Assembly (NCBI GenBank): GCA_025356435.1
Contig: JANXSY010000078.1
Coordinates: 1-64,000, forward strand
Length of the DNA: 64,000 nucleotides
From: Isosphaeraceae bacterium
GTDB taxonomy: Bacteria; Planctomycetota; Planctomycetia; Isosphaerales; Isosphaeraceae
Direction of reading: 5' to 3'
Made by a program: the position numbers and the translations under genes. Below are positions 18,933 to 53,084 of this stretch, piece after piece. The notes beneath the pieces were generated by a model that did no database searches, was not told the origin of the DNA, and worked only from the letters and a program-made list of their open reading frames with translations. Within the stretch, counting starts at the first letter, position 1, and every line of letters begins with the position of its first letter.

Positions 18933-19961
18933 TCAACGTCCCGCGTAGAGCGCATCGACTTCAATCGCTGGCTCAGCCGGTTCGCGATAGCCGTCGGGAT
19001 GGGTCCGCCGCCATCTCCAGGCCGAGCCGACGATCTGGCGGATGTCCGTGTATCTTGGCGACCAACCGAGCTGCCTCATCGCCCGCTGCGGGCAGGCGAT
19101 GAGGACGCCGGGGTCGCCGGGGCGGCGATCGACGATCTCGTGATTGATCGGGAAGCCGACCGCCTCCTCGCAGGCGCGAAGCACTTCGAGGACCGTGACC
19201 CCGGTGCCCGAGCCAAGGTTGAAGGCCCGGCCCATGCCCGGTTCCAGGCTCTCGACGGCCAGCTCATGCGCCTGGGCGAGGTCGTCGACGTGGATGTAGT
19301 CGCGGACGCAGGTGCCGTCCTGGGTCTCGAAATCGTCGCCGAAGATCAGCAGTCGCGGACGTCTGCCAACGGCGACCGCCAGGGCGAGCGGGATCAGGTG
19401 GCTCTCGTCGCGACGGTCTTCACCGTGCTCGCCGTCGATGTCGGCCCCCGAGGCGTTGAAGTAGCGGAAGATCGTGTAGCCCATCCCATAGGCTTTCGCA
19501 TAATCTTTGATGAGCCATTCGGCGGCGAGCTTGGTCGATCCATACGGCACCTGCGGGGTCTGCGGCGCGTCCTCGGTCATCGGCATCCGGGCGTGGAACC
19601 CATAGGTCGCGGCCGTGCTGCTGAAGATGATCCGCCGGACCCCGGAACGCCTCATGGCGTCGAGCACACCCTTCGTGCCGAGTACGTTCGACCGATAATA
19701 GAACTCGGGGTTTTTGATCGACTCAGGGACCGAGGCCGCCGCCGCGAAGTGGAGCACGGCGTCGATCCGCTCTGACCGCATGCAGTCGGCCATCGCGTCG
19801 ACGTCGGCGATGTCTCCGACGACGAGTCGACCGCCCGGCACCGACCCGCGATTCCCCTCGATGAGGTTATCATAAGCGATGGCGTTGTGGCCGTTTTTGA
19901 GCAGGTGGCGGAGACAGGCGCTGCCGACATAACCCGCGCCGCCGGTGAGGAAGAGATTCAT
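18933..19961 (-). CDS. galE: UDP-glucose 4-epimerase GalE
   Basis: 342 residues, the normal length. It interconverts UDP-glucose and UDP-galactose for polysaccharide synthesis. The NAD-binding motif FLTGGAGYVGSACL is at the start. The catalytic SSTAATYG segment and YGSTK (the YxxxK pair, near residue 147) follow, then RYFNASGADIDGEHGEDRRD and VRDYIHVDDLAQAH, all diagnostic for GalE. Its ATG overlaps the stop of the upstream hddC-gmhB fusion as ATGA. It is the last gene of the minus-strand half of the polysaccharide locus. Confidence 0.93.
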   Translation of the reverse strand: MNLFLTGGAGYVGSACLRHLLKNGHNAIAYDNLIEGNRGSVPGGRLVVGDIADVDAMADCMRSERIDAVLHFAAAASVPESIKNPEFYYRSNVLGTKGVLDAMRRSGVRRIIFSSTAATYGFHARMPMTEDAPQTPQVPYGSTKLAAEWLIKDYAKAYGMGYTIFRYFNASGADIDGEHGEDRRDESHLIPLALAVAVGRRPRLLIFGDDFETQDGTCVRDYIHVDDLAQAHELAVESLEPGMGRAFNLGSGTGVTVLEVLRACEEAVGFPINHEIVDRRPGDPGVLIACPQRAMRQLGWSPRYTDIRQIVGSAWRWRRTHPDGYREPAEPAIEVDALYAGR

Positions 19962-21274
19962 CGATGAGACTCCATAAGCAAACTCGTATCGTGTGGCGCC
20001 GCGACCGTCGCCAGGATCCTATCAACGGCCTCGGGAAGATCAGATGCGACCTCGAAGGGCGGGCTGCCCCCCTCGGAATGTCGGCGGGATTCGGGACCTG
20101 AGAGGACGAGGATGCTCCCGCGACATCCCGCGTTCCGACCGGCCCGCACGTCGCTAATCATGTCGCCAACCATCCACGATCTGCCGAGGTCAAGGTGGTG
20201 CTCGTCGGCCGCCCTCAGCAACATCCCGGGACCGGGCTTGCGGTCTGGATGCTCGATCAGGGTACGGTCGCCGCCCGAACCGGTAACGGGACAGTGATAG
20301 ATAGCGTCCAGCACCGCGCCTTCCTCAGCGAGCTGGCGGTTCATCTCCCGGTGAATCGACTCTAGGTCCGTTTCGGTGATAAGGCCAAGGCCGATCGCCG
20401 ATTGATTCGTCACCACGACGCACGCGAAGCCCGCATCCTTGATCCGACGGACCGCCTCGGCCCCGCCCGGCACGAGACGCACCTGCGCGGGGTCGGAGAG
20501 GTAATGAACGTGCTCGATCAGCGTGCCGTCGCGATCGAGGAAAACGGCGGGACGACGTTTTCGACCCGTCGATCGGTATCTTTGCTCGGCCTCCGCCAGA
20601 GCTTCGTGCGTGCCGATATCGCGGTGATAGCCGTCATAGTGCCAGCCCCGCATCCGTCCGACGAACCTCGGCAAGACGTCTCTGCCCAGGTCAAAAGCCC
20701 CTGACGACGCCATCTCACGATAGGCGTCAGGGCTGACGATATAGATCCCGCCGTTAGCGAGATCGCCGCGCGGCTGCCTCGGCTTCTCTTCGAACGAGAC
20801 GACCCGTCCCGCCCCATCCAGTTCGACGATTCCGCACGCTTCAGGTACCGGGGCGCGAAACAAGAGGATCGTGAACGGGTCGTCATGACTCCGGTGGAAG
20901 GCCAGCATTTCCGACAGGTTGACATCACTGAGATTGTCGGCATAGACCAGAATGATCTCAGTGGCGTCGTCCGCGAAGTGGAGATTCGCCGCGACGGTGC
21001 CGGCCGATCCAAGCAACGTCGGCTCATAACACTCGGTGACGTTTAGTCGTCCACAATCATTGACGCCTTGGATGAAAGCCCGCACCTGCCCGGCATGGGC
21101 GTGCGTGTTGACCCTCGCCTCAGAGACCCCCGCCTCGAACAAGGTGTCGACCCAGTAGTCGAGCAGGGGCCGCCCTGCGATCGTGACCAGGCATTTCGGC
21201 AGTCGATCTGTGAGCGGTTTCAACCGCGTTCCCAGTCCGGCGGCCAGCACGAGAGCTTTCACGTTCGATGTCAC
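19958..21274 (-). CDS. hddC: Fused heptose-1-phosphate nucleotidyltransferase and HAD heptose bisphosphatase
   Basis: 438 residues in two domains. Residues 1-235 are a sugar-phosphate nucleotidyltransferase (VLAAGLGTRLKPLTDRLPK, LVYADNLSD, VSFEEKP). Residues about 240-420 are a HAD-IIIA phosphatase of the GmhB type (AVFLDRDGTLIEHVHYLSDP, VVVTNQSAIGLG, MVGDMISDVRAG). With hddA next door this matches the GDP-D-glycero-alpha-D-manno-heptose pathway: GmhB removes the C7 phosphate and HddC adds GMP. The zinc-loop cysteines usual in GmhB are absent after YHCPVTGSGGD. Activity on another sugar 1-phosphate remains possible. Confidence 0.8.
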   Translation of the reverse strand: MTSNVKALVLAAGLGTRLKPLTDRLPKCLVTIAGRPLLDYWVDTLFEAGVSEARVNTHAHAGQVRAFIQGVNDCGRLNVTECYEPTLLGSAGTVAANLHFADDATEIILVYADNLSDVNLSEMLAFHRSHDDPFTILLFRAPVPEACGIVELDGAGRVVSFEEKPRQPRGDLANGGIYIVSPDAYREMASSGAFDLGRDVLPRFVGRMRGWHYDGYHRDIGTHEALAEAEQRYRSTGRKRRPAVFLDRDGTLIEHVHYLSDPAQVRLVPGGAEAVRRIKDAGFACVVVTNQSAIGLGLITETDLESIHREMNRQLAEEGAVLDAIYHCPVTGSGGDRTLIEHPDRKPGPGMLLRAADEHHLDLGRSWMVGDMISDVRAGRNAGCRGSILVLSGPESRRHSEGGSPPFEVASDLPEAVDRILATVAAPHDTSLLMESHR

Positions 21275-30488: not shown

Positions 30489-32615
30489 ATGCCAAATCAA
30501 CGCTACCGCGTCGCGATCCTGGGAACGGGATATATCGCCGAGTGGCACATCAAGGCCCTCCGCGCGCTGCGAAATGTCGAAGTCGACGCGGTCTGCGACC
30601 TCGATCGCGGACGCGCCGAGAGCTTCGCCGCGCGACACCGAATCCCCAACGTCCACGGTTCGCTGGGAGACTTGCTCGACCTTCATGCGCACGACGCCGT
30701 CCATATCTTGGTCCCCGCCGAGGGCCACTGCCGGGCCGCTCGGGAGGTCCTGGATCGCGGCGTCCACGCATTTATTGAAAAGCCGATGTGCCTTCGATCG
30801 GAAGAGTGCGAGGCCCTCTCAGAACTGGCCATCGCCAAGGGCGTGCAGGTCGGCGTGAGCCACAACTTCCTCTATGCGGGGGTGTATGAGCAGCTCAGGC
30901 GGGACGTGATGGGCGGCGCACTCGGGCGGGTCGATCAGGTCGACATCGTCTGGAATAAGGAACTGGGCCAGGTCACGAATGGGCCGTTTGACGCCTGGAT
31001 GTTGCGCGAGCCGGGGAACGTGATCTTCGAGATCGGCCCGCACTCGGTCGCCCATCTCCTCGACCTGGTCGGACAGCCCGACGCCCTATCCGTCCGCGCC
31101 ACCAACCCGATCGAACTGCCAACCGGCCGGCTGTTTTTTCGCCGGTGGCGGGTCGAGGCCTACAAGGGCCATGTGGCGGCCAACCTCAGTTTTTCATTCG
31201 TGCCCGGGTTCTCGGAGCACACGATCCACGTACGCGGGAGCACGGCGGCGGCGACGGTCGACTTCGAGCGTAATACCTACATCCGGCACCAACACCTCCG
31301 CCACGATTACGACCTCGATCGCCACGCGATGAGCACGAAGGAAGCCGCGTCCCTCCGCAAACAGGCCGGCAACACCTTGCGTGATTACGCGGTTTCCAAG
31401 GTGACGAAGTCGCCCGGCGGTAACCCGTTCGGGGCCAGCATCGCGGCGAGCGTCGCGGCGTTCTATGCTGACCTCGGACGCGGCCTCGACCCGCGCATCT
31501 CGGCGAGGATGGGACGCGACACCGTGGCCACCTGCGAACGGATCGTCTCGCTGGCGGGCCTGCCCACGCAGGACCTCACACAGACCGCGACGAAGCTATC
31601 GGTTCCGGCGAGACGGCCTGAGGTTCTCGTCCTCGGGGCCACGGGGTTCATCGGCAAGGAACTGGTCCGCCAACTCACGCTCCTCGATCGCCCGACGCGG
31701 GTGCTCGTCCGCAAGCCGGGGGGGACCGCCGCAACCTTCGATCGCCGGGTCGTCGACGTGATGCAGGGAGACATCTCACGCCCCGAAGACCTCGACCGCG
31801 CGCTCGATGGGATCACGCACGTCATCCACCTCGCCCGCGCCCAGGCCAAAACGTATGACGACTTCATCAAGCATGACGTTGAAGTCACCGGAATCCTCGC
31901 CGAGAAATGCCTGGCTCGCGGCGTGAGTCGACTCATCTACACAAGTTCGATCTCTCCTTATTACTCCGGAAAACACGCCGGAACGATCACCGAGAAGACG
32001 CCGCTCGACGCCAAGATCGGCCGACGAAATGCCTATGCACGGATCAAGGCTCTGACCGAGGAGACGCTCCTGGCGATGCATCGTCGCGACGGCCTACCGA
32101 TGGTCATTTTCCGACCAGGGATCGTGATCGGCCGAGGAAGCCGGCCCTTCCACCCTGGCGTCGGGCTCTGGGCGTGGGACTCGATCTGCCGATTCTGGGG
32201 ACGAGGCACGAACCTCCTGCCGATCGTGCTGGTCGATGACGTCGCCTCGGCCCTCGTGGCCGCGCTCGATACGCCGGGGATCGAGGGGGAATGCTTCAAC
32301 CTCGTGGGCGAGCCGTGCATCACCGCGAGGGAGTTCGTCCGCGAGATCGAGAATCATGCTGGAATCACGCTCGACACGGCACCGTCGTCGATCGCCAGGT
32401 TCTATCTCGCCGATATGAGCAAGTGGCTGATCAAATTGCTGATCCGCCACCCCGACCGCCGCTTGCCGAGCTATCGAGACTGGGAGTCGCGTTCTCAGCG
32501 CGCCGTCTATGACTGCACCAAGGCCAAGACATGGTTGAACTGGCTCCCGACCACCGATCGTGGCGAAATCGTCCGGCGCGGAATCCACGAGCCCCTCGCG
32601 GAGCGACTCCGATGA
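30489..32615 (+). CDS. Fusion of a Gfo/Idh/MocA oxidoreductase with an SDR epimerase/dehydratase
   Basis: 708 residues, two Rossmann enzymes in one chain. Residues 1 to about 345 are Gfo/Idh/MocA-like (RVAILGTGYIAEWHIKAL, AFIEKPMCL, GPHSVAHLLDL). Residues about 375-700 are an extended SDR (VLVLGATGFIGKEL, YTSSISPYY, and YARIK giving the YxxxK pair near residue 515). This suggests oxidation and epimerisation or reduction of one nucleotide sugar in two linked steps. No stop or ribosome site separates the halves and the linker (LTQTATKLSVPARRPE) is short. Its stop overlaps the next ATG as ATGA. Substrate unknown. Confidence 0.85.
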   Translation: MPNQRYRVAILGTGYIAEWHIKALRALRNVEVDAVCDLDRGRAESFAARHRIPNVHGSLGDLLDLHAHDAVHILVPAEGHCRAAREVLDRGVHAFIEKPMCLRSEECEALSELAIAKGVQVGVSHNFLYAGVYEQLRRDVMGGALGRVDQVDIVWNKELGQVTNGPFDAWMLREPGNVIFEIGPHSVAHLLDLVGQPDALSVRATNPIELPTGRLFFRRWRVEAYKGHVAANLSFSFVPGFSEHTIHVRGSTAAATVDFERNTYIRHQHLRHDYDLDRHAMSTKEAASLRKQAGNTLRDYAVSKVTKSPGGNPFGASIAASVAAFYADLGRGLDPRISARMGRDTVATCERIVSLAGLPTQDLTQTATKLSVPARRPEVLVLGATGFIGKELVRQLTLLDRPTRVLVRKPGGTAATFDRRVVDVMQGDISRPEDLDRALDGITHVIHLARAQAKTYDDFIKHDVEVTGILAEKCLARGVSRLIYTSSISPYYSGKHAGTITEKTPLDAKIGRRNAYARIKALTEETLLAMHRRDGLPMVIFRPGIVIGRGSRPFHPGVGLWAWDSICRFWGRGTNLLPIVLVDDVASALVAALDTPGIEGECFNLVGEPCITAREFVREIENHAGITLDTAPSSIARFYLADMSKWLIKLLIRHPDRRLPSYRDWESRSQRAVYDCTKAKTWLNWLPTTDRGEIVRRGIHEPLAERLR

Positions 32616-33823
32616 GAATTCTCTACAGCCACTTCCTCGACGACGACGACCACCCCGCCGTGCAGATGGTCCACGCCATCAGCCGGCAACTTCGGTCGAT
32701 CGGGCACGAAGTCTGCGTCCATCGGAGCCTCGGTGAAGCGACGGGCGGGCATCGCGAGGTCGCGAAACCGACCCGCCGCACTCCCCTGACGGCGGTGAAG
32801 GATCGGTTCTGGTTCGCAAGAGCGCTGGCCCGCAATCGACCGATGATGCGACGAGATCGGGCGGCGATCGAAGCGTTCCGACCCGACGTTGTGCTCGCGA
32901 GGGAAGACCCGTATTGCGTCTCGATGGCCCTCGCCGCCGGGGCCGCCGGGGTGCCGCTCGTCACATTCGCCGACGTGCCGGTGGCCTATGAGACCCGAAC
33001 GTTTCCCGTCGGAGGGAGATGGCATCCGCCGTTCCTCGTTGAGGCGATCGAGCGACTCTGGTTGAAGCGGTGCCGCGCCGTGGTCACCCCCTGCCGGCCC
33101 GCCGCCGACGAGTTGAAAAAGTACGGGCTTGAAGTCCCCATCCATGTCTCGGCAAATGGCGTCGATCCCGAGAATTTTCCCGAGACGACACCCGAGCAGA
33201 GGGAGCAGGGGAGGCGGGCCTTGGGTCTTCCGGAAGGGGCGACGATCGTGGGGTTTCAGGGTTCGTTCCGCCGGTTTCACGGGATCGATCTGCTCCGGGA
33301 CATGATCCTCGCAACCGCCTCACGACCCGACGTCCACTGGCTCCTCATCGGCGATGGACCCGAACGCGGTCGCCTTGAGGCAGCGGTCGCGGGCCGATCC
33401 CGGGCCACCTTCATCGGCAAGCAGCCGCCTGGGCGCATGGGTGCTCTGACGGCGGCGTTCGACATCGCAGTATCAACGCATGTATTTGTTGAGGGATCTT
33501 TCTACTTCTGTCCGCTCAAGATTCTCGAATACGGGGCCGCAGGCTGTGCGATCCTTGCCAGCACGCAGGGGGACATCCCCCGATTACTCGACGGCGGACG
33601 TGCCGGGGTGTTGGTCGACGGCCCCGACCCCGCCGCCTGGATCGCCGCCCTCGTAGGCTTGCTAGCCAACCGGCGACGCGCGGAGCACCTGGGACGAGCG
33701 GCGAGAGAATTCGTGCTGGGGCATCTCACCTGGAAACACTCAGCGATTCGCATTGAGAGCATCTTAAATGCGGCCCTAGCGATGCCGATGCCGGCACCAA
33801 TCGGTCTTGTCCTCAGCCCTTGA
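32612..33823 (+). CDS. Glycosyltransferase family 4
   Basis: About 403 residues. The ATG at 32612 overlaps the previous stop; the open frame upstream is inside that gene. The N terminus RILYSHFLDDDDHPAVQMVH is a GT-B acceptor domain. The C-terminal domain has VGFQGSFRRFHGIDLL, LIGDGPERGRLE and FCPLKILEYGAAGCAILAS in place of the usual ExFGxxxxE segment, with E of ILEYGAAG conserved. Sugar donor unknown. A 99-base gap follows before the signalling module begins. Confidence 0.88.
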   Translation: MRILYSHFLDDDDHPAVQMVHAISRQLRSIGHEVCVHRSLGEATGGHREVAKPTRRTPLTAVKDRFWFARALARNRPMMRRDRAAIEAFRPDVVLAREDPYCVSMALAAGAAGVPLVTFADVPVAYETRTFPVGGRWHPPFLVEAIERLWLKRCRAVVTPCRPAADELKKYGLEVPIHVSANGVDPENFPETTPEQREQGRRALGLPEGATIVGFQGSFRRFHGIDLLRDMILATASRPDVHWLLIGDGPERGRLEAAVAGRSRATFIGKQPPGRMGALTAAFDIAVSTHVFVEGSFYFCPLKILEYGAAGCAILASTQGDIPRLLDGGRAGVLVDGPDPAAWIAALVGLLANRRRAEHLGRAAREFVLGHLTWKHSAIRIESILNAALAMPMPAPIGLVLSP

Positions 33824-33922: not shown

Positions 33923-34387
33923 ATGGTCTCGGGAAAGAAGACCGATTCGAGGGCGACGGCTTTTGTCCTCGGTGTCGTGAATCTGGACGCTGTCGCCGCG
34001 CGGCGACTTCGGCTCGAAGTCCTACCGATCGTCGGCGCGGGTGGGTCCGTCGTTCTGGATATGGGGGGGATCGAGTTTGCCGATTCGAGCGGCCTAGGGG
34101 CGATTTGTGCCCTCAAGAAGGCGAGCGAGCAGGGAGGCCTCGTCGTCCTGGCCCGGTGCTCGCGAAGGCTGGAAACGATCCTCGCGAAGGTCCCCGAAGG
34201 CCGCCTTCCGGAACGCTTCACGACTCTTGGCGAGGCGGCCGAGGCCGTGTCCCGACATCTCAAGACGGACGTGGTCATGTCGGACTTCATCTCACCGATT
34301 GTCGCGTTCCCGATCCGGCAAGCGGCCGCGCCGACCGACAACCGTTGGAACCATAAAGATCTTCTCGCCCATGCACATGCCGACTAA
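33923..34387 (+). CDS. STAS-domain anti-anti-sigma-like protein (first copy)
   Basis: About 154 residues. The ATG at 33923 follows GGAGGAG; an upstream ATG at 33836 lacks such a site. The STAS fold is shown by VVLDMGGIEFADSSGLGAICALKKA, where the DSSG Ser (near residue 55) is the position phosphorylated by RsbW-type kinases in known systems, followed by TTLGEAAEAV. The C-terminal 30 residues beyond the domain (DVVMSDFISPIVAF) are unusual. It overlaps the co-polymerase gene by 17 bases. Its likely role is a phospho-switch responding to the phosphatase/kinase-like protein encoded at 36649. Confidence 0.85.
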   Translation: MVSGKKTDSRATAFVLGVVNLDAVAARRLRLEVLPIVGAGGSVVLDMGGIEFADSSGLGAICALKKASEQGGLVVLARCSRRLETILAKVPEGRLPERFTTLGEAAEAVSRHLKTDVVMSDFISPIVAFPIRQAAAPTDNRWNHKDLLAHAHAD

Positions 34388-36590
34388 TCTTCCCGCGCCG
34401 TCGATCTCCAGAACGGCCTCGCCCGCCGCGCGATTCCGCAGGTTGGCGACTGTGGTCTGCGGCGCGATCTCGCGGAGGAAGGTCCTCTTCGTTGTCGGAT
34501 GCCTGTTGAGCGTCGCTTCGGCCGCGGGCCTGTCGGAGGTGCTGGCAAAGAAGTTGTGGGAGTCGAACGGGATGTTGCTCTACACCCCGCTGACGACCGC
34601 CGAGAGCACGGCCTCGATGTATGTTCCGCCCGACCTCAAGACCCTGGTGAGCATCGCCGAAGAGCCTACCGCACTCGCAGTGATCGCCGACGAATTCCAA
34701 CTTGATATCCCGATCAAGGCCCTGGCAGCCAGCTTCGAGGTGACGGTAGCCAGCGGGACGAAGACGATCGAGTTCCGGCTGAAGTGGGGCGATGCGCAGA
34801 TCGGGGCCGACATGGTCAATCAGCTGATGGAGAGCTTCCGCAGCGCGGTCCTCGATATCCGGCTGAGGAAGATCGACGACTACGCGAAGGGCTTCGAGGT
34901 CAACAAGCAGCAGGCGTCCGACCGGTATCACACCTCGCTGAAGACGTTGCAGGATTTCAACCGCACTGCTTCGAGCGTCGACATCGGCCGCGAACTGAAC
35001 CTGACGAATGAGAACATGCTGCAACTCCAGCTCGAAATCGGCCGGGTCCGCCGCTCGGAATTGAACTCCAAGAGCCAGGCGAAGGAGTTGGAGCGGTACG
35101 TCACTGAGATGCGACGCCGGGAACATGCTGAGGGAGAGGACAAGCAATTCGAAGCCGCCGATGAGACGATCGCCGACAATCGTCGTCGCCAGGATCGGCT
35201 CCGCGAGATGGTCACCGACGAGCGGAGCCGGATGGAGATTGAAGCCCAGCTCGTTGCCAAGCGGGCCGAGCAACGCCGGCTCCTCAAACTCGCGCACGAC
35301 AATTTCGCATCAAAAGAGGAACTGGAACGGATCGGGGCCGAGATCGGCGTTCTCACCGCCAAGGTCATTGATACCGAAAAGATTGTTGGTTGGAAGACAG
35401 AACTCGACCGGATCGACCAGGTGGTTGTGCCGAAGGGGAAGACCAAGAGCCAGGGGTCTCCGGTCGTCCAGCAGGCGCTGACGAAACGGCTGGAGATCGA
35501 TCTTATCCTGCTCGGCAATCGCGAGGAGTTGCGGGAACTGGTAGGCGAGATCGAGGAGAAACGCCAGCGGATCGACAAGCTGCTCTCGATGCAATTGAAA
35601 TATCAATCGTTGACGAAAGAGGTGGAGGCGGCCGAGCTCGAGGTGGTCACGGCCGCCGCAGGGTTGCGAGAGATGCGGAAACTTCAGTCGATCCGCGTCC
35701 CTGACCTGGTGGTTGTCACCCCCGCGACGCCTTCGCCCTATCCGACCACCAACCGCAAGACGCTCCTGGTCGGATTCCTGGTGGGCGGGCTGCTCCTGGC
35801 GACGGCATCGGTGTTGCTGATCGACCACCTGCGATCCGACGGTCCGACATCCACGAGCGTCGTCTCGGGACTCGGACTGCCGATGCTCGAGCGATTGACC
35901 GGTGATGGCAAGCGGCCGTCGTTCTTCGCTTCGGAATCAGTTGAGCTTCGGCTCCTGGCGTTACGGATTCGTCAGGCGATCCGCATCCCCTCCGCCGTCT
36001 GCGTTTTCAGCACGATCAACGAGGCGGCGGGATCGGCCTGGCTCATCGTCCCGCTCGCCCAGTGCCTTGCCCGTCGAGACGAGCGCGTCCTCATCATCGA
36101 CTCGGCCGGTCTCGGCGACGACCCTCGATATCTCGAATCGCTGATTGACGCCCGGCCGCTGGGGGAGGCCCAGCCCGGTCTGGGGGATTACCTCGTCTTC
36201 GTCGAGGACGACCTGGCGCGAGTAGTCCTCCCGACGACGATTCCGGCCGTCGACTATCTACCGCGCGGGACGACGCCCGTCGGCTTCGATCTTCTGGCGA
36301 CGTATCGCATGACCGAGCTGCTCGACACCCTCCGCGACCTCTACACCATGATCCTCATCATCGGCCCGCGCGCTGATCGCCAGGTCGACCTGGAGATCCT
36401 CTCCGCTCGCGCCGATGGCATCATTTTCCTCGCCGACGACCAGTCGGGCCGCTGCCTGAAGTCGATCCCGAATATCAAAATCCTCGCCAGTCTCGGCGCA
36501 CCGATCCTCGGGGCCGTCGTCCAGACCTCGCAAGGTGGGACCCCGAGGTCAAAACGTGCCGTCCGAAAATTGGACAAAGTGCCCGCGTGA
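34371..36590 (+). CDS. Polysaccharide co-polymerase with degenerate BY-kinase-like domain
   Basis: About 739 residues. A first membrane helix (VLFVVGCLLSVASAAGLSEV, about 40-60) and a second (LLVGFLVGGLLLATASVLLI, about 465-485) flank a long coiled-coil-rich region, the layout of Wzz/GumC-type chain-length regulators. The C-terminal cytoplasmic part from about 530 resembles the P-loop fold of bacterial tyrosine kinases (RVLIIDSAGLGDDPRYLE; DLLATYRMTELLDTLR; MILIIGPRA). But the Walker A site is replaced by STINEAAGSAW, without the GK[ST] lysine, and no terminal Tyr cluster is present. It is probably a non-catalytic scaffold. The start may be 34371 or 34377; neither has a good ribosome site, consistent with coupling to the STAS gene. 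Confidence 0.8.
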   Translation: MHMPTNLPAPSISRTASPAARFRRLATVVCGAISRRKVLFVVGCLLSVASAAGLSEVLAKKLWESNGMLLYTPLTTAESTASMYVPPDLKTLVSIAEEPTALAVIADEFQLDIPIKALAASFEVTVASGTKTIEFRLKWGDAQIGADMVNQLMESFRSAVLDIRLRKIDDYAKGFEVNKQQASDRYHTSLKTLQDFNRTASSVDIGRELNLTNENMLQLQLEIGRVRRSELNSKSQAKELERYVTEMRRREHAEGEDKQFEAADETIADNRRRQDRLREMVTDERSRMEIEAQLVAKRAEQRRLLKLAHDNFASKEELERIGAEIGVLTAKVIDTEKIVGWKTELDRIDQVVVPKGKTKSQGSPVVQQALTKRLEIDLILLGNREELRELVGEIEEKRQRIDKLLSMQLKYQSLTKEVEAAELEVVTAAAGLREMRKLQSIRVPDLVVVTPATPSPYPTTNRKTLLVGFLVGGLLLATASVLLIDHLRSDGPTSTSVVSGLGLPMLERLTGDGKRPSFFASESVELRLLALRIRQAIRIPSAVCVFSTINEAAGSAWLIVPLAQCLARRDERVLIIDSAGLGDDPRYLESLIDARPLGEAQPGLGDYLVFVEDDLARVVLPTTIPAVDYLPRGTTPVGFDLLATYRMTELLDTLRDLYTMILIIGPRADRQVDLEILSARADGIIFLADDQSGRCLKSIPNIKILASLGAPILGAVVQTSQGGTPRSKRAVRKLDKVPA

Positions 36591-36648
36591 CATAGGCTCT
36601 CAACAGACGGCACTCAAGGCCGTGGGAAAAGACCCGAGGTGCAATCGA

Positions 36649-38715
36649 ATGCTCACCTTTAATGAAACAACCGTCTCCGACGCTGTGGCGCAAGCACTTG
36701 TCGGGGAACTCCAGGCTTCGTTCATCCCGATCGCGGCCACACTGGGCTGTTCGTTGGCGTTTCGCATCGATTCCCGCGACGAATGGCTAGTGATCGACCC
36801 GGCTTGTCGATGCGACGACGAATATTCGGTCGGCGATCTCGATTGCCTCGGGGCAGGGCGAGACCTGGCCACGATCCCGATTGAGTTCGAAGGGACATGG
36901 CTGGGAGATATTCGGGTTTGCACCCCAAGGGCGGCCGCCACGACCCTCGGTGTACTTCGGCAGATCATCGAATCGACATTGAAGCGGATCTTACTGGAGA
37001 AGCAAGAGTCGCGGCTTCGCAACGAACTCAGCGAATGCAGGCAGAATCTCGAAGCCCTCTACGAGACTCATTCGCTCACGCCCACCTCGCAGAGCATGGA
37101 GGCGATCGTCGATCGTGTCCTCTCCCGCGCCGTGGGGGGCGAGCACGACCGCCGGGCTGCCTTGTGGGTCGAACATAACGGGACGCTCGAACAGTTCGGC
37201 ACTGAGGCCAGCGGCAACGGGTCTCGGCCACCCTTCGACGAGGGGTTGATCCGCACGGCCGTGGCCGAGCAGCGTGGGCTCGTTATCGACGACTTGCAGC
37301 CGGAATGCGGCGGGTCGGCGCGGGTCCTGATCGCGCCGGTCGCCTCGTTCCATGGGACACGGGGCGCGGTTGCGGTCTGGGGATCGGCGTCGGGAAAACC
37401 TTTCGACTCGCGGTTCGTCCGGCAGACCCAGGCCCTCGCGACCCAGGGCGTGATGGCCCTTGAGGGAGAGCGGCTCTATCGGGCGGCGCTCGAGAACGAG
37501 CTGATCCGGCAGGAGCTGGACATCGGTGCCCGGATGCAACAAATGCTGCTGATCGGCAACCAGCCGAATCCGCTCGGTTTCGCGCACGTCGCGAGCCTCG
37601 TCCTGCCTTCGCAGCGAGTCGGGGGGGATTTCGTCGAGTTCTTCCCGCATCAAGATCACTGCATTGATATCTTGATCGGCGACGTCATGGGTAAGGGGCT
37701 GAAGGCGTCACTTGTTGGCGCTGCGGTCGCCAGGCAGTTCCACCGGACGCTCTGTTCGCTCCTCTCCGCCCGCCAAGATCACCTACCCCGGCCTGAGAAG
37801 ATCGTCTCGATCGTTCATGAGGAGATCGCCCGCCTCCTTGCCGAGTTCGACAGTTTCGTCACGCTCAACTACGCGAGGATTGACGCAACCACGACCCGTT
37901 TCGAGTTCGTCGACTGCGGCCATACGCCAATCCTGCACCATAGGCGCCAGACCCGCCAATGCCAACCGATTCGCGGTCAGAGCATGCCACTGGGCTTTAG
38001 CGATCGGGAATCTTATGAACAGGTTTCTGTGTTGTATGATGACGGAGACCTCTTCGTCTTCTACTCCGATGGTGTGACCGAGGTCAGAGACGCAAACGGA
38101 GAATTTTTCGGCCTGGAACGGCTCATTGCCCTGGTCGAAGGCCCGGGGCACGACGGCAATCCCGAGGCATTGATCCAGATCATCCAGACGGCGCTCGCCC
38201 ACTTCGCGGGGAGCGATCGCTTCGATGACGACCTGACGATCGTCGTCGTCGAGGCCCACGTCGCCGAGCCTCCCAAGCCCGGCACGCGGACGGCCTGCCT
38301 GGAGATCAAGAGTGACCTCTCCCGCCTGGAAGCCGTCCGGTCGTTCGTCCGATCGGTCTGCCAGGGCGACGACTACCCATGCCTTAGCGCACGCCGGGTC
38401 TCGCTGCTGGAACTCGCCGTCACCGAGGCGATCAGCAATATCATGATCCACGCATACGGGGGCCGCACCGACTGCTGGATTCGGGTCGAGGGAGAGATCT
38501 CGAACGAATGCGTTCTGATCCGCTGCACCCACACCGGCGAGCCGTTCGACCCGTCCACTGTCGAGCCGCCCCCCTTCGACGGGACGCGTGAGGGCGGCTA
38601 TGGCGTCTACCTCATCGACCAGTCGGTTGACGAGGTGTTCTATGTGCAAAACGGCCGCGGAATCCACGCCATCACGCTCATCCAGAAACGCCAGTTGACT
38701 GAACCAGGAGCCTGA
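36649..38715 (+). CDS. GAF-like / SpoIIE (PP2C) phosphatase / HATPase partner-switch protein
   Basis: About 688 residues. An N-terminal part (about 1-290) looks GAF-like, with a helical linker. The SpoIIE/RsbU phosphatase domain, about 295-540, keeps its metal-site Asp residues (VGGDFVEFF, IGDVMGKGLKASL, FYSDGVTEV, DDDLTIVVVE). The C-terminal domain, about 550-685, is HATPase_c of the RsbW type with the N-box ELAVTEAISNIMIHAYGG. The usual G1-box Asp is not seen (RCTHTGEPFDP), so kinase activity is uncertain. Likely role: dephosphorylate, and perhaps phosphorylate, the two flanking STAS proteins. The ATG at 36649 follows GAGG. A combined phosphatase plus HATPase recalls Vibrio SypE, in another domain order. 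Confidence 0.85.
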   Translation: MLTFNETTVSDAVAQALVGELQASFIPIAATLGCSLAFRIDSRDEWLVIDPACRCDDEYSVGDLDCLGAGRDLATIPIEFEGTWLGDIRVCTPRAAATTLGVLRQIIESTLKRILLEKQESRLRNELSECRQNLEALYETHSLTPTSQSMEAIVDRVLSRAVGGEHDRRAALWVEHNGTLEQFGTEASGNGSRPPFDEGLIRTAVAEQRGLVIDDLQPECGGSARVLIAPVASFHGTRGAVAVWGSASGKPFDSRFVRQTQALATQGVMALEGERLYRAALENELIRQELDIGARMQQMLLIGNQPNPLGFAHVASLVLPSQRVGGDFVEFFPHQDHCIDILIGDVMGKGLKASLVGAAVARQFHRTLCSLLSARQDHLPRPEKIVSIVHEEIARLLAEFDSFVTLNYARIDATTTRFEFVDCGHTPILHHRRQTRQCQPIRGQSMPLGFSDRESYEQVSVLYDDGDLFVFYSDGVTEVRDANGEFFGLERLIALVEGPGHDGNPEALIQIIQTALAHFAGSDRFDDDLTIVVVEAHVAEPPKPGTRTACLEIKSDLSRLEAVRSFVRSVCQGDDYPCLSARRVSLLELAVTEAISNIMIHAYGGRTDCWIRVEGEISNECVLIRCTHTGEPFDPSTVEPPPFDGTREGGYGVYLIDQSVDEVFYVQNGRGIHAITLIQKRQLTEPGA

Positions 38716-38721
38716 TCCGTT

Positions 38722-39099
38722 ATGGACATCTCATTTGAAACCGTCGGCTCCGTCACGATCGTCACGCTCGGAGGCACGTATTTCGACGCCGGCCGCTCCA
38801 AGGAGTTTCGCCGCGAGGTCATTGAGCGGCTGTCCTCTCCCGCCAAAATTCTCATCGACCTGACGGAGATCCAGTTCATCGACAGTTCCGGATGCGGCGC
38901 GATCCTCGCTGCCTCGCGCCGGGCGAATCCCACCGGGCAGGGGCCTGGCGACCTCAAGCTCTGTGGCGTCACGAAGCAAGTCCGCATGGTCTTCGAGATG
39001 GTGCGACTCCACAAAATTATCGATATCTACAACACGCGCGACGAAGCGATTCGGGCCTTCGAGGTCGACTCGTCTGCCGTGGCTCTGGCATCGAGGTAA
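38722..39099 (+). CDS. STAS-domain anti-anti-sigma-like protein (second copy)
   Basis: 125 residues, essentially a bare STAS domain: VTIVTLGGTYFDAG, ILIDLTEIQFIDSSGCGAILAA with the phosphorylatable DSSG Ser near residue 57, and MVRLHKIIDIYNTRDEAIRAF, as in RsbV/SpoIIAA. It begins 6 bases after the phosphatase gene and ends 2 bases before the priming sugar transferase, so cotranslation is likely. It differs clearly from the first STAS protein (shorter, no C-terminal extension), so the two may have different partners. Confidence 0.9.
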   Translation: MDISFETVGSVTIVTLGGTYFDAGRSKEFRREVIERLSSPAKILIDLTEIQFIDSSGCGAILAASRRANPTGQGPGDLKLCGVTKQVRMVFEMVRLHKIIDIYNTRDEAIRAFEVDSSAVALASR

Positions 39100-39101
39100 A
39101 T

Positions 39102-39854
39102 ATGGCGACCGTACTGACAGCCGACCGATCCCGCATCCTACTCCGCGACGAGCTGATCCGCCTCTATGGCGACGGCGGCAGCTCACCGAGCGGGCTCGCG
39201 AGGCGGCTCAAGCTCTGGTGGAAACTCTATTCCTGGGACGTCGCGATCGGCGGCGCGACGCTGCTGAAGCGGCTATTCGACATCGCCACGTCGGGCCTGG
39301 CGCTGGTCGCCCTTTTGCCCCTCTTCTTTGTCGTGGCGATCTTGATCAAACGCCACGACGGCGGGCCGGTGCTCTTCTGGCAGAAGCGGGTCGGGCGGTG
39401 GGGACGCGAGTTCACCTTCCCGAAATTCCGGTCGATGCAAGTTGATGCGGAGACGCTCAAAGACGCCCTGCTCGCCCAGAACGACCACCGAACCGGGCCG
39501 ACATTCAAGATGAAACGTGACCCGCGCGTTACGCCCGTCGGCCGCGTGATCCGCAAGCTGAGCATCGACGAACTGCCCCAACTCTGGTGCGTCCTGATCG
39601 GCGAGATGTCGATCGTCGGGCCTCGACCTCCGGTCCCTCGCGAGGTCGCGGTCTACACATTGGCAGACCGTCGACGGCTCGAAGTCACGCCCGGACTGAC
39701 CTGCATCTGGCAGGTGAGTGGGCGCGGAGACATCCCCTTCGACCGTCAAGTCGAACTCGACGTTCAATATGCTCAGAGCAAGAGCTTCTGGTTTGATCTC
39801 TTCTTGATCCTCAAGACCATCCCGGCCGTACTCACCGGACGAGGTGCATATTGA
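39102..39854 (+). CDS. Priming sugar transferase (undecaprenyl-phosphate glycosyl-1-phosphate transferase)
   Basis: About 250 residues. It has one N-terminal membrane hairpin (IATSGLALVALLPLFFVVAI) after KRLFD, then GPVLFWQKRVG, FPKFRSM, SIDELPQLWCVLIGEMSIVGPRPP and PGLTCIWQVSGRGDI. These are the conserved blocks of WcaJ/WbaP-type enzymes, which start repeat-unit assembly by moving a sugar 1-phosphate from a nucleotide sugar to undecaprenyl phosphate. It lacks the extra N-terminal helices of WbaP, a short form. GAGGT precedes the ATG at 39102. Sugar specificity unknown. Confidence 0.93.
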   Translation: MATVLTADRSRILLRDELIRLYGDGGSSPSGLARRLKLWWKLYSWDVAIGGATLLKRLFDIATSGLALVALLPLFFVVAILIKRHDGGPVLFWQKRVGRWGREFTFPKFRSMQVDAETLKDALLAQNDHRTGPTFKMKRDPRVTPVGRVIRKLSIDELPQLWCVLIGEMSIVGPRPPVPREVAVYTLADRRRLEVTPGLTCIWQVSGRGDIPFDRQVELDVQYAQSKSFWFDLFLILKTIPAVLTGRGAY

Positions 39855-39880
39855 ACCGCCCATCATCGAAAGGGGCACGG

Positions 39881-41338
39881 ATGAGGACGATCCTGATCGC
39901 CACCGGAGACCCCTCTGATCTCGGCGCACTGGCCGAGCAAGACCCCGCGCCGATGCTCCCGTTCGTCGATCGGCCGTTCCTCCAGCACGTCGTCGAGTCG
40001 TTGGCATCGCGCGGATTTACCGAATTCGACCTGGTCGTGAGTCACCTCGCCCACCGGATCGAGGACCACTTCGGCGACGGCACGCGCTGGGGCATCACGA
40101 TTCGTTATCATGTCGCCCGAGACGCAGACCGGCCGTATCGCAGGCTGCTCACGATGAGCCCACTCGTAGGCGATACCCCCGTGTTGCTCTGCCACGCCGA
40201 CCGGTTCCCCTCGATCGAGGCGATCGAACCACCGGCTCCGGCGACCGGGCCGATTCTGTACTGCAAACGAGGCGACTGGACCGGCTGGGCCTGGATATGC
40301 CGTGACGACATCAAAGACGTATCGGCCGATGACGACGAGAAGACCCTGGCCGCCCGCCTATTTGCACGCACGAACGAACAGGGCATCATTGAGGCAGGCA
40401 AGGGAATGAGCGCGGGCGATTTCGCCTCGATCCTGGCGGGCAATATCGCCGCCCTCTCCGAACGGTCATCATCGCTCCTCTTCGGAGGCCGCGAGGTCGA
40501 GCCCGGGCTCTGGATCTCGCGAAACGTCATCCTCCACCCAACAGCGCGGCTCATCCCGCCGGTCTACCTCTGTGAAGACTGCAAGGTCGGCGAAGGGGCG
40601 GAAATCGGCCCTGGTGTCGTCGTCGGCTCCGGGTGCGTCCTCGACCGCCGGTGCTCGGTCGCCAACGCCGTTGTCTTCCCGTCGACTTACGTCGGCGAAG
40701 GGGTTGACCTTCACGACGTTCTCGTCGTCCGCGACCATCTCATCGACGTTCGCACGGGACTTCAAATCACACTCTATGATGAAATATTGCTCGGAACCGC
40801 CTCGGGCCGATCGCTGGGACTGCGGCTCGCGAGGCTCGTCGCGCGGGCAACGGCGGTCGTGGCCCTGGCCTTCACTTGGCCGATCCTGCTGGCGACGGCG
40901 GTCGTTCTCAAGGCCTTGGGGCGCGGAGGTTTCTCTCCGACCGACGTGGTCTCGCTGCCGGCCTCAACCGACCGAGCGCGATGGAAGACGTATCGACTCT
41001 GGAGGTTTAACCTCGGAGAGGATTCCGCACCGAGGGGAGGGCTGCTCGACCTACTGCTCCGATTCCTCCCTGGCCTGCTGAACGTCGCCCGTGGAGAGCT
41101 GCGATTCGTGGGTGTTCCGCCCCGATCGGCCGAAGCGATCTCTGCGCTGCCCGAGGAATGGAAGGCCCTCTATCTTCGGACCCATGCCGGGTTAATTACG
41201 GAATCGAACCTCTTCAACGCACCGTCACCCGACCCCGAGGGGGACCAACTGGCCGACGCCTATTATGCCGTCGCCGGGGGGAAGCTCCACGACGTCCGGC
41301 TCGTGGCGGGCTATCTCGGCAAGGCTCTATTTCGGTGA
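39881..41338 (+). CDS. Nucleotidyltransferase-like / left-handed beta-helix / sugar-transferase-like fusion
   Basis: About 485 residues. The N-terminal part (1-200) resembles sugar nucleotidyltransferases (TILIATGDPSDLGALAEQDP, MLPFVDRPFLQHVVESL) but lacks the GxGTR loop and the later Lys motif. Residues about 217-290 are hexapeptide-like beta-helix repeats (VGEGAEIGPGVVVGSGCVLD). The last 175 residues echo a priming sugar transferase (membrane segment VVALAFTWPILLATAVVL, YRLWRFN, LLNVARGELRFVGVPPRSAE, HAGLITES) with its signature residues altered. It directly follows a normal sugar transferase and AGGGG precedes the ATG. Likely non-catalytic or altered; role unknown. Confidence 0.7.
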   Translation: MRTILIATGDPSDLGALAEQDPAPMLPFVDRPFLQHVVESLASRGFTEFDLVVSHLAHRIEDHFGDGTRWGITIRYHVARDADRPYRRLLTMSPLVGDTPVLLCHADRFPSIEAIEPPAPATGPILYCKRGDWTGWAWICRDDIKDVSADDDEKTLAARLFARTNEQGIIEAGKGMSAGDFASILAGNIAALSERSSSLLFGGREVEPGLWISRNVILHPTARLIPPVYLCEDCKVGEGAEIGPGVVVGSGCVLDRRCSVANAVVFPSTYVGEGVDLHDVLVVRDHLIDVRTGLQITLYDEILLGTASGRSLGLRLARLVARATAVVALAFTWPILLATAVVLKALGRGGFSPTDVVSLPASTDRARWKTYRLWRFNLGEDSAPRGGLLDLLLRFLPGLLNVARGELRFVGVPPRSAEAISALPEEWKALYLRTHAGLITESNLFNAPSPDPEGDQLADAYYAVAGGKLHDVRLVAGYLGKALFR

Positions 41339-41364
41339 GGTCCGACACGATCGGTCGCCGAAAA

Positions 41365-41386
41365 TGTCCTATAGAAGAGAGGGACA
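41365..41386. promoter_or_regulatory. Inverted repeat TGTCC-N12-GGACA before rfbA
   Basis: TGTCC (41365-41369) and GGACA (41382-41386) form an imperfect operator-like pair 33 bases before the rfbA start. The same half-sites occur as a longer repeat at 29563-29585 with a 13-base spacer. A shared regulator is a guess. Confidence 0.25.
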
Positions 41387-41419
41387 ATTCGCCATCTCTC
41401 TATCGAAGGGAGGCCGATC

Positions 41420-42313
41420 GTGAAGGGCATCATCCTCGCGGGAGGGTCGGGGACTCGGCTCTACCCGATGACCCGCGTCGTTAGTAAGCAGCTCCTGCCG
41501 ATCTATGACAAGCCGATGATCTATTACCCCCTCAGCACGCTGATGCTCGCGGGGGCTCGTGAAATACTCATCATATCCACGCCCACTGACTTACCTCGCT
41601 TCAAGGAGCTTCTCGGCGACGGCGGCGCGTGGGGCCTCCACCTTGAATACGCCGAGCAGCCCCGCCCCGAAGGTCTGGCGCAGGCCTTCGTGATCGGTCG
41701 GGAATTCGTCGGAGACGACCGGGTCGCGCTGGTGCTCGGCGACAACATCTTCTACGGCCACGGCCTCGGCAACATCCTTCGAGAGGCTGCCTCACGGCCG
41801 ACCGGGGCAACCATCTTCGGCTATCACGTCCAGGACCCCGGCCGCTATGGCGTGGCTGAGTTCGGGCCTGACGGCGAGGTGGTCGGGATCGAGGAGAAGC
41901 CCGCTGTGCCCAGGTCATCCTATGCTGTGACCGGGCTCTATTTCTATGACAACCAGGTTCTCGATATCGCGGCCGCGCTCCAGCCTTCCCCGCGCGGCGA
42001 GCTGGAGATCACCGACATCAACCGCGAATACCTCCGGCGCGGCCGGCTCCGGCTCGACGTGCTCGGGCGAGGGATCGCCTGGCTCGACACCGGGACGCCC
42101 GAGGCCCTCCAGCAGGCCGCGAGCTTCATCCAGTCGGTCGAAACCCGACAGGGTCTGAAGGTCGCCTGCCTCGAAGAGGTCGCCTATCGGATGGGATTCA
42201 TCGACGCCTGGCAGGTACGTGAGGTCGCCGAGACGCTCAAGAACGACTACGGACGCTATCTTGAACAGGTGATTGAAGGAGAAGCATATGAAAGTTGTCA
42301 AATTGAAGTTTGA
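41420..42313 (+). CDS. rfbA: Glucose-1-phosphate thymidylyltransferase RfbA
   Basis: 297 residues, normal length. It makes dTDP-glucose, the first step to dTDP-L-rhamnose. The whole N terminus [20 protein letters not shown] with [20 protein letters not shown] is diagnostic, followed by [30 protein letters not shown] and [10 protein letters not shown]. The GTG start has GGGAGG six bases before it. It overlaps rfbC by 26 bases. The next enzymes, RfbB and RfbD, are not in this window. Confidence 0.95.
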
Positions 42314-51534: not shown

Positions 51535-52404
51535 TCACTCTTCGTTGCCTTCCGAACCCTGAATATCAGCCTCGGACACGCCCAGATATTTCGCCACCGC
51601 GTCGAGTTGATTCTTAATCTCGAAGATCCCGGCCGGCCGCTTATCGCGGTTCGGCTCCAGACAGGCGAGGATCGTCTCGTTGAGCGTACCGGGAATCTTG
51701 GGGTTGATCTGGATCGGCGCGGCGAGCTTACTCGAACGCGTGTTGTCGCCGGGCTTCGGGTTGCCCATGTTGGCATATCGGCCTGTAAACATTCGATACA
51801 TCGTCGCGCCGAAGTTGTAGATGTCGGTTCGGTCGTCGACAATCTTCTCGTTCACTGTTTCGGGGGCGATATATTGCGGAGTGCCCTGGATGCGGTTCTT
51901 GTCGCGTCCCTTGATCCAGGCGGTTCCCAGGTCGATTAGCTTCACCTTGCCGTCTTTGGTGAGCATGATATTGCCGGGCTTAAGATCACCGTGGTAGACG
52001 CCCCGGCGGTGCATGGTTGAGAGTCCGGACGCGACCTGAGTGAAGATCAGCACGAGCTGGCTCATCCCGGGTGCTTCAATCTCGTCGAGCGTGCGGCCGT
52101 CAACAAACTCCATCAGGAGTTCGACGCCAGAGGTCTTGAACCACGACTTCTTGATCCGACAGTCGTAGATCCGGACGATCGCTGGATGCTTGAGTTTCTT
52201 GCCGACCTCGTATTCGGTCTTCGCCTGCTCGATGAACACGTCGTCGTCGGCGTCTTGCCGTTTGACGACCTTGAGAGCGAAGTCTTTGCCGCCGCGAGTC
52301 TTATCTTTGATCAGGAAGACGACGCTCCCGGCCCCTTCGCCGAGCTGTTTCGCCACGCGAAACTGCATGTCCTTGAAATTCGGCTCGGTCGTCACGTTCG
52401 ACAT
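51535..52404 (-). CDS. Serine/threonine protein kinase (Hanks type)
   Basis: About 289 residues, a kinase domain only, with no membrane segment. It shows the Gly loop GEGAGSVV, the ATP Lys in FALKVVK (Lys 45), the catalytic loop HGDLKPGN (Asp 140, with HGD in place of HRD), the metal site LIDLG (Asp 158, DLG in place of DFG), GTPQYIAPE and DIYNFGATMYRMFTGRY. All essential residues are present, so it is probably active on cytosolic substrates. The ATG at 52404 with GAGG six bases before it is used; the upstream open frame lies toward the divergent flavin reductase gene. It may regulate the XPB operon that follows. Confidence 0.9.
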   Translation of the reverse strand: MSNVTTEPNFKDMQFRVAKQLGEGAGSVVFLIKDKTRGGKDFALKVVKRQDADDDVFIEQAKTEYEVGKKLKHPAIVRIYDCRIKKSWFKTSGVELLMEFVDGRTLDEIEAPGMSQLVLIFTQVASGLSTMHRRGVYHGDLKPGNIMLTKDGKVKLIDLGTAWIKGRDKNRIQGTPQYIAPETVNEKIVDDRTDIYNFGATMYRMFTGRYANMGNPKPGDNTRSSKLAAPIQINPKIPGTLNETILACLEPNRDKRPAGIFEIKNQLDAVAKYLGVSEADIQGSEGNEE

Positions 52405-52586
52405 GCGTTCCTCGGAGCTATCATCAAGGATGCGGCGCGCGGCGAAACGCGGGGCCAGGCCCTCTCGACCACCCAAAGAGGGTATCGCAACGAGCTTCCG
52501 GCGGCAATCCCCCGGTCGTGCCGTATGGCCCTTCTCGACTATAATACGTTCGCGACATTCGACCTCAACTCGCCTGGGAATCTCTG

Positions 52587-53084
52587 ATGAGCGACACAAA
52601 CTCCCATCTCGGTAACGCCAATCTCGCCGCCGCGCTCGGCCGAGTCCCCAGTGGCCTTTTCATCTTGACCGTACGCTCGGGTGGCCGGTCGACCGGCATG
52701 CTCGCGAGCTGGGTTCAGCAGGCCGGATTCGACCCGCCGATGCTGACCGTGGCACTTCACCGTGACCGCTACGTCGGCGAGTGGGTCAGGGCGTCGGGCA
52801 AGTTCGTGCTCAATCAGATCGCCGTCGGCAACAAGTCGCTCCTGCGACACTTCGGAAAGGGCTTCCACCCGGAGGAAGAGGCATTCGAGGGCGTAAATCT
52901 GGCTCAGGAACACCCGGCCGGCCCGGTGCTCGCTGACGCGTTGGCTTTCATGGTCGTCGAGTCCGTTGGCGAGGTGGCTGGAGCCGACCATGTGGTCTTG
53001 CTGTGCAAGGTTGTCGAAGGAGGGCTGATCGACTCCGAGGGCCAAGCGTTCGTCCACATTCGGCAAAATGGGCTCCACTACTGA
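52587..53084 (+). CDS. Flavin reductase-like FMN-binding protein
   Basis: 165 residues, a single split-barrel flavin reductase domain: AALGRVPSGLFILTVRSGG, TGMLASWVQQAGFDPPMLTVAL, and KFVLNQIAVGN. Family members bind FMN and use NAD(P)H to supply reduced flavin or act alone. The region DHVVLLCKVVEGG resembles the C-terminal strand of the domain. GGGAA precedes the ATG. It is followed 24 bases later by the sulfite-oxidase-like gene, so the pair may share a redox role, but this is inferred. Confidence 0.85.
   Translation: MSDTNSHLGNANLAAALGRVPSGLFILTVRSGGRSTGMLASWVQQAGFDPPMLTVALHRDRYVGEWVRASGKFVLNQIAVGNKSLLRHFGKGFHPEEEAFEGVNLAQEHPAGPVLADALAFMVVESVGEVAGADHVVLLCKVVEGGLIDSEGQAFVHIRQNGLHY

Follow-up and report, generated by a model that had tools for sequence, protein, structure and literature searches.

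A partner-switching cassette adjoining a priming sugar transferase in a planctomycete polysaccharide locus

We analysed a stretch of 64,000 nucleotides from an Isosphaeraceae bacterium (contig JANXSY010000078.1 of assembly GCA_025356435.1; hereafter the window), in which a partner-switching module lies within a polysaccharide locus. The source genome, G000, is incomplete (5.6 Mb in 303 contigs, the window being C297), and relatives were surveyed among 45 genomes of the order and 398 genomes spread over the class. Seven + strand genes occupy positions 33923-42313. They encode, in order, a STAS-only protein (STAS1), a polysaccharide co-polymerase, a GAF/SpoIIE/HATPase protein, a second STAS protein (STAS2), a priming polyprenyl-phosphate sugar-1-phosphate transferase (PGT), a degenerate nucleotidyltransferase (NTPhex), and an RmlA-type enzyme. 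The genes are densely packed: STAS1 and the co-polymerase overlap by 11-17 bases, 6 bases separate the stop of the SpoIIE gene from the STAS2 start, and 2 bases lie between STAS2 and the PGT gene (TAA AT ATG). Their GC content (60-65%) is close to that of the window (63%). Glycosyltransferases, a WecG-type transferase, a Wzx flippase, and a weak O-antigen ligase match surround the cassette on both strands. Promoter and terminator scans gave results at chance level.

Re-derivation of the genes and Pfam searches bore out the coordinates and domain calls of an original prediction made from the bare sequence, which described two DSSG STAS proteins flanking the co-polymerase and the GAF/SpoIIE/HATPase protein, with the second STAS gene 2 bases before the PGT gene. 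The five genes lie head-to-tail. In line with the prediction that the window has no sigma factor gene, none of the 40 open reading frames (ORFs) scanned has a sigma-factor Pfam match. Its label “phosphorelay” is a misnomer; this is serine-based partner switching, with no His-Asp relay.

The GAF/SpoIIE/HATPase protein (P0003; 36649..38715, + strand) joins a GAF domain, a SpoIIE (PP2C) phosphatase, and an RsbW-type HATPase in a single chain (Pfam GAF_2 5.8e-7, SpoIIE 1.1e-39, and HATPase_c_2 1.3e-15). Homology with a relative, G025, indicates that its start is most likely the ATG at 36649, and disfavours the GTG at 36535. All PP2C metal-binding aspartates are kept in the alignment to SpoIIE (GGD, GDVMGKG, SDG, and DDD), and they are intact in relatives too. 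STAS2 (38722..39099, + strand; PF01740 E=2e-16; motif IDSSGCG) is anti-sigma-antagonist-like: it scores above the TIGR00377 cut-off (58.7 vs 53.45 bits), and its nearest solved structure is SpoIIAA (1th8, E=4e-8). The phosphorylatable DSSG serine is present in both STAS proteins of the window. The PGT (P0005; 39102..39854, + strand) matches PF02397 (E=5e-64), retains its DE dyad (SIDELPQL), and scores 280.9 bits against TIGR03025 (cut-off 295.55).

The cassette continues beyond the genes originally described, into NTPhex (39881..41338, + strand). Pfam and alignments divide this protein into a degenerate sugar-1-phosphate nucleotidyltransferase, a hexapeptide helix, and a degenerate PGT-like C-terminal domain. 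The nucleotidyltransferase signature GGxGTR is gone (the window has ATGDPSDLGAL in the alignment to RmlA), and the final ~150 residues are PGT-like with the DE dyad absent. By hhalign, this C-terminal domain matches PGTs at probability 96-98 (E=3e-9), its profile retrieves PGTs at E down to 2e-9, and the G025 copy of NTPhex passes PF02397 (33.4 bits). A single-sequence AlphaFold model of NTPhex was unusable (pLDDT 37). NTPhex may serve the priming step as a scaffold or regulator. It occurs in 12/398 genomes of the class, and no further NTPhex loci turned up when two families were sampled densely (95 and 170 genomes).

STAS2-type genes repeatedly adjoin PGT and NTPhex. We traced this linkage through the neighbourhoods of co-polymerase homologs and a search of the 398 genomes with a four-sequence STAS2 alignment, and find it in eight genomes (G000 and G025 included) from three families (f1, f2, and f3), in two arrangements. 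G025 has a receiver-like gene, SpoIIE/HATPase, STAS2, PGT (after a 3-base gap), NTPhex, and RmlA; its co-polymerase lies ~17 kb off on the same contig, without STAS1. The order STAS, PGT, NTPhex is found in G315, G112, and G291, where a contig end cuts the locus, and the order PGT, NTPhex, HATPase, STAS in G234, G252, and G296. STAS and HATPase calls in these relatives are upheld by Pfam. In a tree of 47 STAS domains, the PGT-linked genes all fall within one 25-member group, a result compatible with one origin of the PGT link or with several. The GAF/SpoIIE/HATPase protein itself has two orthologs among the genomes of the order, in G025 (53% identity) and G011 (37%); in G011, a receiver-like gene, SpoIIE/HATPase, and STAS are followed by unrelated genes. 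No additional match to this protein better than 1e-32 was found in the 398 class genomes, and a contig search with it returned distant phosphatases only.

The receiver-like gene directly before SpoIIE/HATPase has a single receiver-like domain in both relatives (L033 12090-12530 in G025; L034 8771-9271 in G011), and at its place the window has STAS1 and the co-polymerase. Upstream of the G025 module lies a very long repeat protein of 2404 amino acids with SdrD-like repeats (L033 12766-19980). An apparent STAS-PGT fusion on a Paenibacillus plasmid (NZ_CP054613, match H63) is spurious, its “STAS” part having aligned to a GalU gene, and a plasmid search with concatenated STAS2 and PGT found no linked pair elsewhere.

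The presence of STAS co-varies with the PGT-like domain of NTPhex. That domain is found in 7/7 readable STAS-linked NTPhex proteins vs 0/4 unlinked ones (G205, G297, G070, and G235; Fisher p=0.003, with related genomes counted separately and the G291 copy left out because of its contig end). The pattern holds within one genus, g23, in which G112 has both STAS and the domain, and G205, G297, and G070 have neither. This correlation is our strongest hint of STAS action on the PGT/NTPhex pair, and together with the recurrent STAS-PGT linkage it makes one of the assembly enzymes the more likely target.

We tentatively propose, giving it slightly less than an even chance, that the cassette serves the polysaccharide assembly line as its dedicated partner switch, with STAS2 acting on PGT/NTPhex. 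The GAF/SpoIIE/HATPase protein would sense a signal and set the state of STAS2. Its phosphatase would release STAS2, and its HATPase domain would bind and possibly phosphorylate it. Free STAS2 would then act post-translationally on the priming step, by binding the PGT itself or NTPhex, its pseudo-enzyme partner. If STAS proteins do bind these enzymes, partner switching would serve as a post-translational on/off control of polysaccharide initiation.

HATPases linked to STAS2-clade genes mostly have lost the aspartate of the G1 box, a second feature absent from the original prediction. In P0003, the N box (ExxxN; TEAISN) and the G2 box (GGYGVYLI) are kept, whereas alignment to 6m36 shows THTG for the ADEG of RsbW, a change from Asp to His. 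G025 has HSG, and 12/14 of the linked HATPases are HxG, the others having Tyr (G207) or Asp (G011). The remaining planctomycete RsbW-type proteins of the HATPase alignment are DxG. HxG is not universal among genomes with the STAS-PGT linkage: no HATPase is linked in G315 or G291, and the best-scoring ones elsewhere in these genomes are ordinary DxG proteins. In GHKL proteins, the G1 aspartate contacts the adenine of ATP. Since His replaces it, ATP binding and kinase activity of the HATPase are doubtful; being conserved, the substitution speaks for an altered function and against decay. The kinase step of the linked HATPases is accordingly in doubt, and the domain may be no canonical kinase. 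The loss of this aspartate makes it a live possibility that the HATPase holds STAS2 by binding, not by ATP-dependent phosphorylation. If STAS proteins bind the enzymes named above, the HxG HATPases would make a new kind of component in partner switching, and their kinase activity is directly testable.

The same change bears on a classical route, in which the HATPase acts as anti-sigma factor with STAS2 for an antagonist, and the module sets transcription of the locus via a sigma factor encoded elsewhere. This would suit a STAS2 that passes TIGR00377 and has SpoIIAA as its nearest structure, and an HATPase that is RsbW-like. Several sister modules are, moreover, divergent to glycogen phosphorylase, a layout usual for transcriptional control. 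The classical route is harder to reconcile with the replaced G1 aspartate in nearly all linked HATPases and with the lack of a sigma-factor match in the window, and a sigma target would not predict that STAS co-varies with the PGT-like domain of a neighbouring protein. We regard it as unlikely, if a serious contender.

Away from PGT genes, members of the STAS2 clade mostly lie beside carbohydrate-polymer enzymes. A glycogen phosphorylase (GlgP) gene lies 0-2.3 kb from a STAS2-clade gene in G339, G321, G247, G253, G207, G279, G229, and G235 (PF00343 at ~1040 bits in the five tested, the remaining three identified by similarity to those). An isoamylase lies 52 bases from the STAS2-clade gene of G198, and a UTP-glucose-1-phosphate uridylyltransferase also adjoins the STAS of G234 and G296. 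A PGT, GlgP, or GlgX neighbour accompanies 16/23 STAS2-clade loci (E<1e-23 in the STAS2 alignment search), vs 0/22 STAS genes of other clades in the loci fetched. The Fisher value (p=5e-7) is descriptive, as the pattern was spotted post hoc, the set includes short contigs, and several genomes fall in the same genus. At the level of genera, GlgP links come from five (two families) and PGT links from seven (three families). Among the GlgP-side loci (L137, L138, L140, L141, L145, L150, L152, and L154), an HxG or Tyr-variant HATPase is linked in five, and three have an FHA-GAF-SpoIIE protein; several of their STAS proteins are DSRG or DSAG, so that the usual phospho-serine is gone, with the phosphatase intact. 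A further observation comes from G282, where a protein that fuses an extracytoplasmic function (ECF)-type sigma factor (Sigma70 regions 2 and 4) to a PPIC-type rotamase is encoded 1.5 kb from a STAS2-clade gene (L147 2870-4855).

This distribution suggests that the STAS2 clade is a subfamily attached to carbohydrate-polymer enzymes (PGT/exopolysaccharide, glycogen phosphorylase, and isoamylase), possibly independent of sigma factors. It also bears on hitch-hiking, in which a mobile regulatory module sits near polysaccharide genes by chance and regulates something else. The spread is narrow and patchy (3/45 genomes of the order), the G011 module stands outside polysaccharide loci, and the full gene order is seen once. 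Recurrence of the linkage in three families and two gene orders, the 16/23 clade loci near carbohydrate-polymer genes, and co-variation with the NTPhex C-terminal domain make such hitch-hiking improbable. At its broadest, the proposal of a dedicated module would place carbohydrate-polymer enzymes, namely PGT/pseudo-transferase or GlgP/debranching enzyme depending on the species, under the direct gating of STAS proteins and their HxG HATPases, which may have ceased to be ATP-dependent kinases; glucose-1-phosphate would in this way be steered into storage glucan or exopolysaccharide, with no sigma factor. We consider this extension speculative and rather unlikely as it stands.

Several observations weigh against a dedicated module. 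All of its support is gene linkage and sequence, and binding of STAS2 to PGT/NTPhex is inferred from these. The association counts are post hoc, and the relatives are not independent. The original prediction took an order unique to one genome as evidence against itself, and the complete order STAS1-co-polymerase-SpoIIE/HATPase-STAS2-PGT occurs in no other of the 398 genomes; what recurs is SpoIIE-STAS2-PGT-NTPhex in G025 and STAS-PGT in the three families. The orthologous module of G011 lies outside any polysaccharide locus, and STAS2-clade modules without a carbohydrate-polymer neighbour are present in G355, G231, and G282, with two more in G247 and one in G315. The motif of PGT-linked STAS proteins is DSSG in G000, G025, G315, and G291, DAAG in G112, and DSAG in G234, G252, and G296 (f2). 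With relatives that lack the phospho-serine (DSAG, DSRG, or DAAG), a shared phospho-switch cannot be assumed. The link between STAS1 and the co-polymerase is weak, being matched in one other genome where the serine is lost. The original claim that STAS proteins act on assembly enzymes directly is partly supported: it is favoured by the STAS-PGT recurrence and the NTPhex co-variation, and set back by the unique full order, a thin STAS1/co-polymerase half (G034 only, DSAA), and a kinase that may be non-canonical.

The cassette is a genuine partner-switching module and as such belongs to a known kind; what is new is the fusion of a phosphatase to an HxG HATPase, the operonic arrangement with a PGT and a pseudo-enzyme, and the carbohydrate-tied clade. 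As in Bacillus SpoIIAA/SpoIIAB/SpoIIE and RsbV/RsbW/RsbU, there is a DSSG STAS protein, an RsbW-type HATPase, and a PP2C phosphatase. Unlike those systems, the window has no linked sigma factor, its phosphatase and HATPase are fused, and HxG stands for DxG. The closest likeness in setting is Vibrio fischeri SypA/SypE, a STAS-only protein and a fused Ser kinase/PP2C phosphatase inside a polysaccharide locus. Published work places the control that SypA exerts on the Syp polysaccharide at an “unknown level” and considers a role as anti-sigma antagonist unlikely (PMC11112999; PMC4517449). The domain order differs from that of SypE, as originally noted: the window protein is GAF-PP2C-HATPase and lacks a receiver (in G025 and G011, a receiver-like gene of its own stands before the module). 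The window also has two STAS genes, STAS2 immediately upstream of PGT, and a G1 His, unlike the SypA/SypE locus.

Nostoc HmpU/HmpV/HmpW is likewise a partner switch in a motility/polysaccharide locus, and the HmpV target is unknown (PMC8256260); it comes from a different phylum, and the available portion of that source reports no PGT link. The same source describes Anabaena All4160, a glycosyltransferase with an N-terminal STAS domain connected with heterocyst envelope polysaccharide. All4160 resembles the window at the general level of a STAS tied to a glycosyltransferase; it is a fusion, whereas the window has separate, coupled genes. For polysaccharide-locus STAS proteins such as SypA and HmpV, the switches are known and the targets are not, and the neighbourhoods described here suggest PGT, NTPhex, and glycogen phosphorylase as candidates. 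A literature search of partial coverage found no paper linking STAS proteins to glycogen phosphorylase or to a planctomycete priming transferase.

In Pseudomonas aeruginosa SiaABCD, a small protein whose state depends on a phosphatase and a kinase binds an enzyme directly and activates it (PMC8457831, PMC7647112), a likeness that is inferred for the window. SiaABCD is reported as a threonine phosphorylation pathway, and where an assembly enzyme is proposed here, its target is a diguanylate cyclase, SiaD, which SiaC activates directly (PMC8457831). The output of the window module could, by analogy, be a remote non-sigma target such as a cyclic di-GMP enzyme, with polysaccharide control indirect, and the SpoIIE domain weakly matches SiaA. 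No such enzyme was seen beside the module in the PGT-linked loci, most of whose neighbours are labelled only by similarity to window genes, and we consider a remote output very improbable.

STAS1 is probably a recent, secondary addition beside the co-polymerase. STAS1 (33923..34387, + strand; PF01740 E=2.1e-10) is a STAS-only protein with the motif ADSSGLG and a ~40-residue C-terminal tail; a strong Shine-Dalgarno sequence, AGGAGGAG, precedes its ATG. It scores 32.3 bits against TIGR00377, under the cut-off of 53.45. No close ortholog was found in the 45 genomes of the order, its branch in the 47-domain tree is very long, and the sole positional parallel is a weak STAS (28.6 bits, DSAA) between a GT4 gene and the co-polymerase in G034. 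For these reasons, the STAS1/co-polymerase half of the original idea is thinly supported. The co-polymerase (34371/34377-36590, + strand) is Wzz-like, with a coiled coil and a BY-kinase-like C-terminus of uncertain activity. It has no Pfam match; its matches to NCBIfam tyrosine-autokinase/Wzz models (E 6e-8 to 8e-4) are every one below cut-off, and it matches Wzc 9xgv at E=2.4e-6. Its WD40 matches among PDB structures are artefacts of repeats. Homologs occur in 38/398 class genomes.

The cassette is flanked by further sugar-related genes. Directly upstream of STAS1 lies a GT4 glycosyltransferase (32606..33823, + strand; PF13692 E=3e-18), and the last gene of the row encodes the RmlA-type glucose-1-phosphate thymidylyltransferase (41420..42313, + strand; PF00483 E=5e-73), whose G025 counterpart (L033 6254-7147) keeps the order. 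At 30489-32615, a GFO/IDH/MocA oxidoreductase is fused to an NAD-dependent epimerase, and long proteins resembling this fusion are found near co-polymerase genes of other planctomycetes (L076, L089, and L096). A fusion of a nucleotidyltransferase to a haloacid dehalogenase (HAD)-type phosphatase domain lies at 19958-21274, and a eukaryotic-like Ser/Thr protein kinase at 51535-52599, ~12 kb downstream of the module. Genome G000 has 13 STAS and 4 SpoIIE matches in total, and its contig C135 (L172 8570-9637) carries two neighbouring STAS genes.

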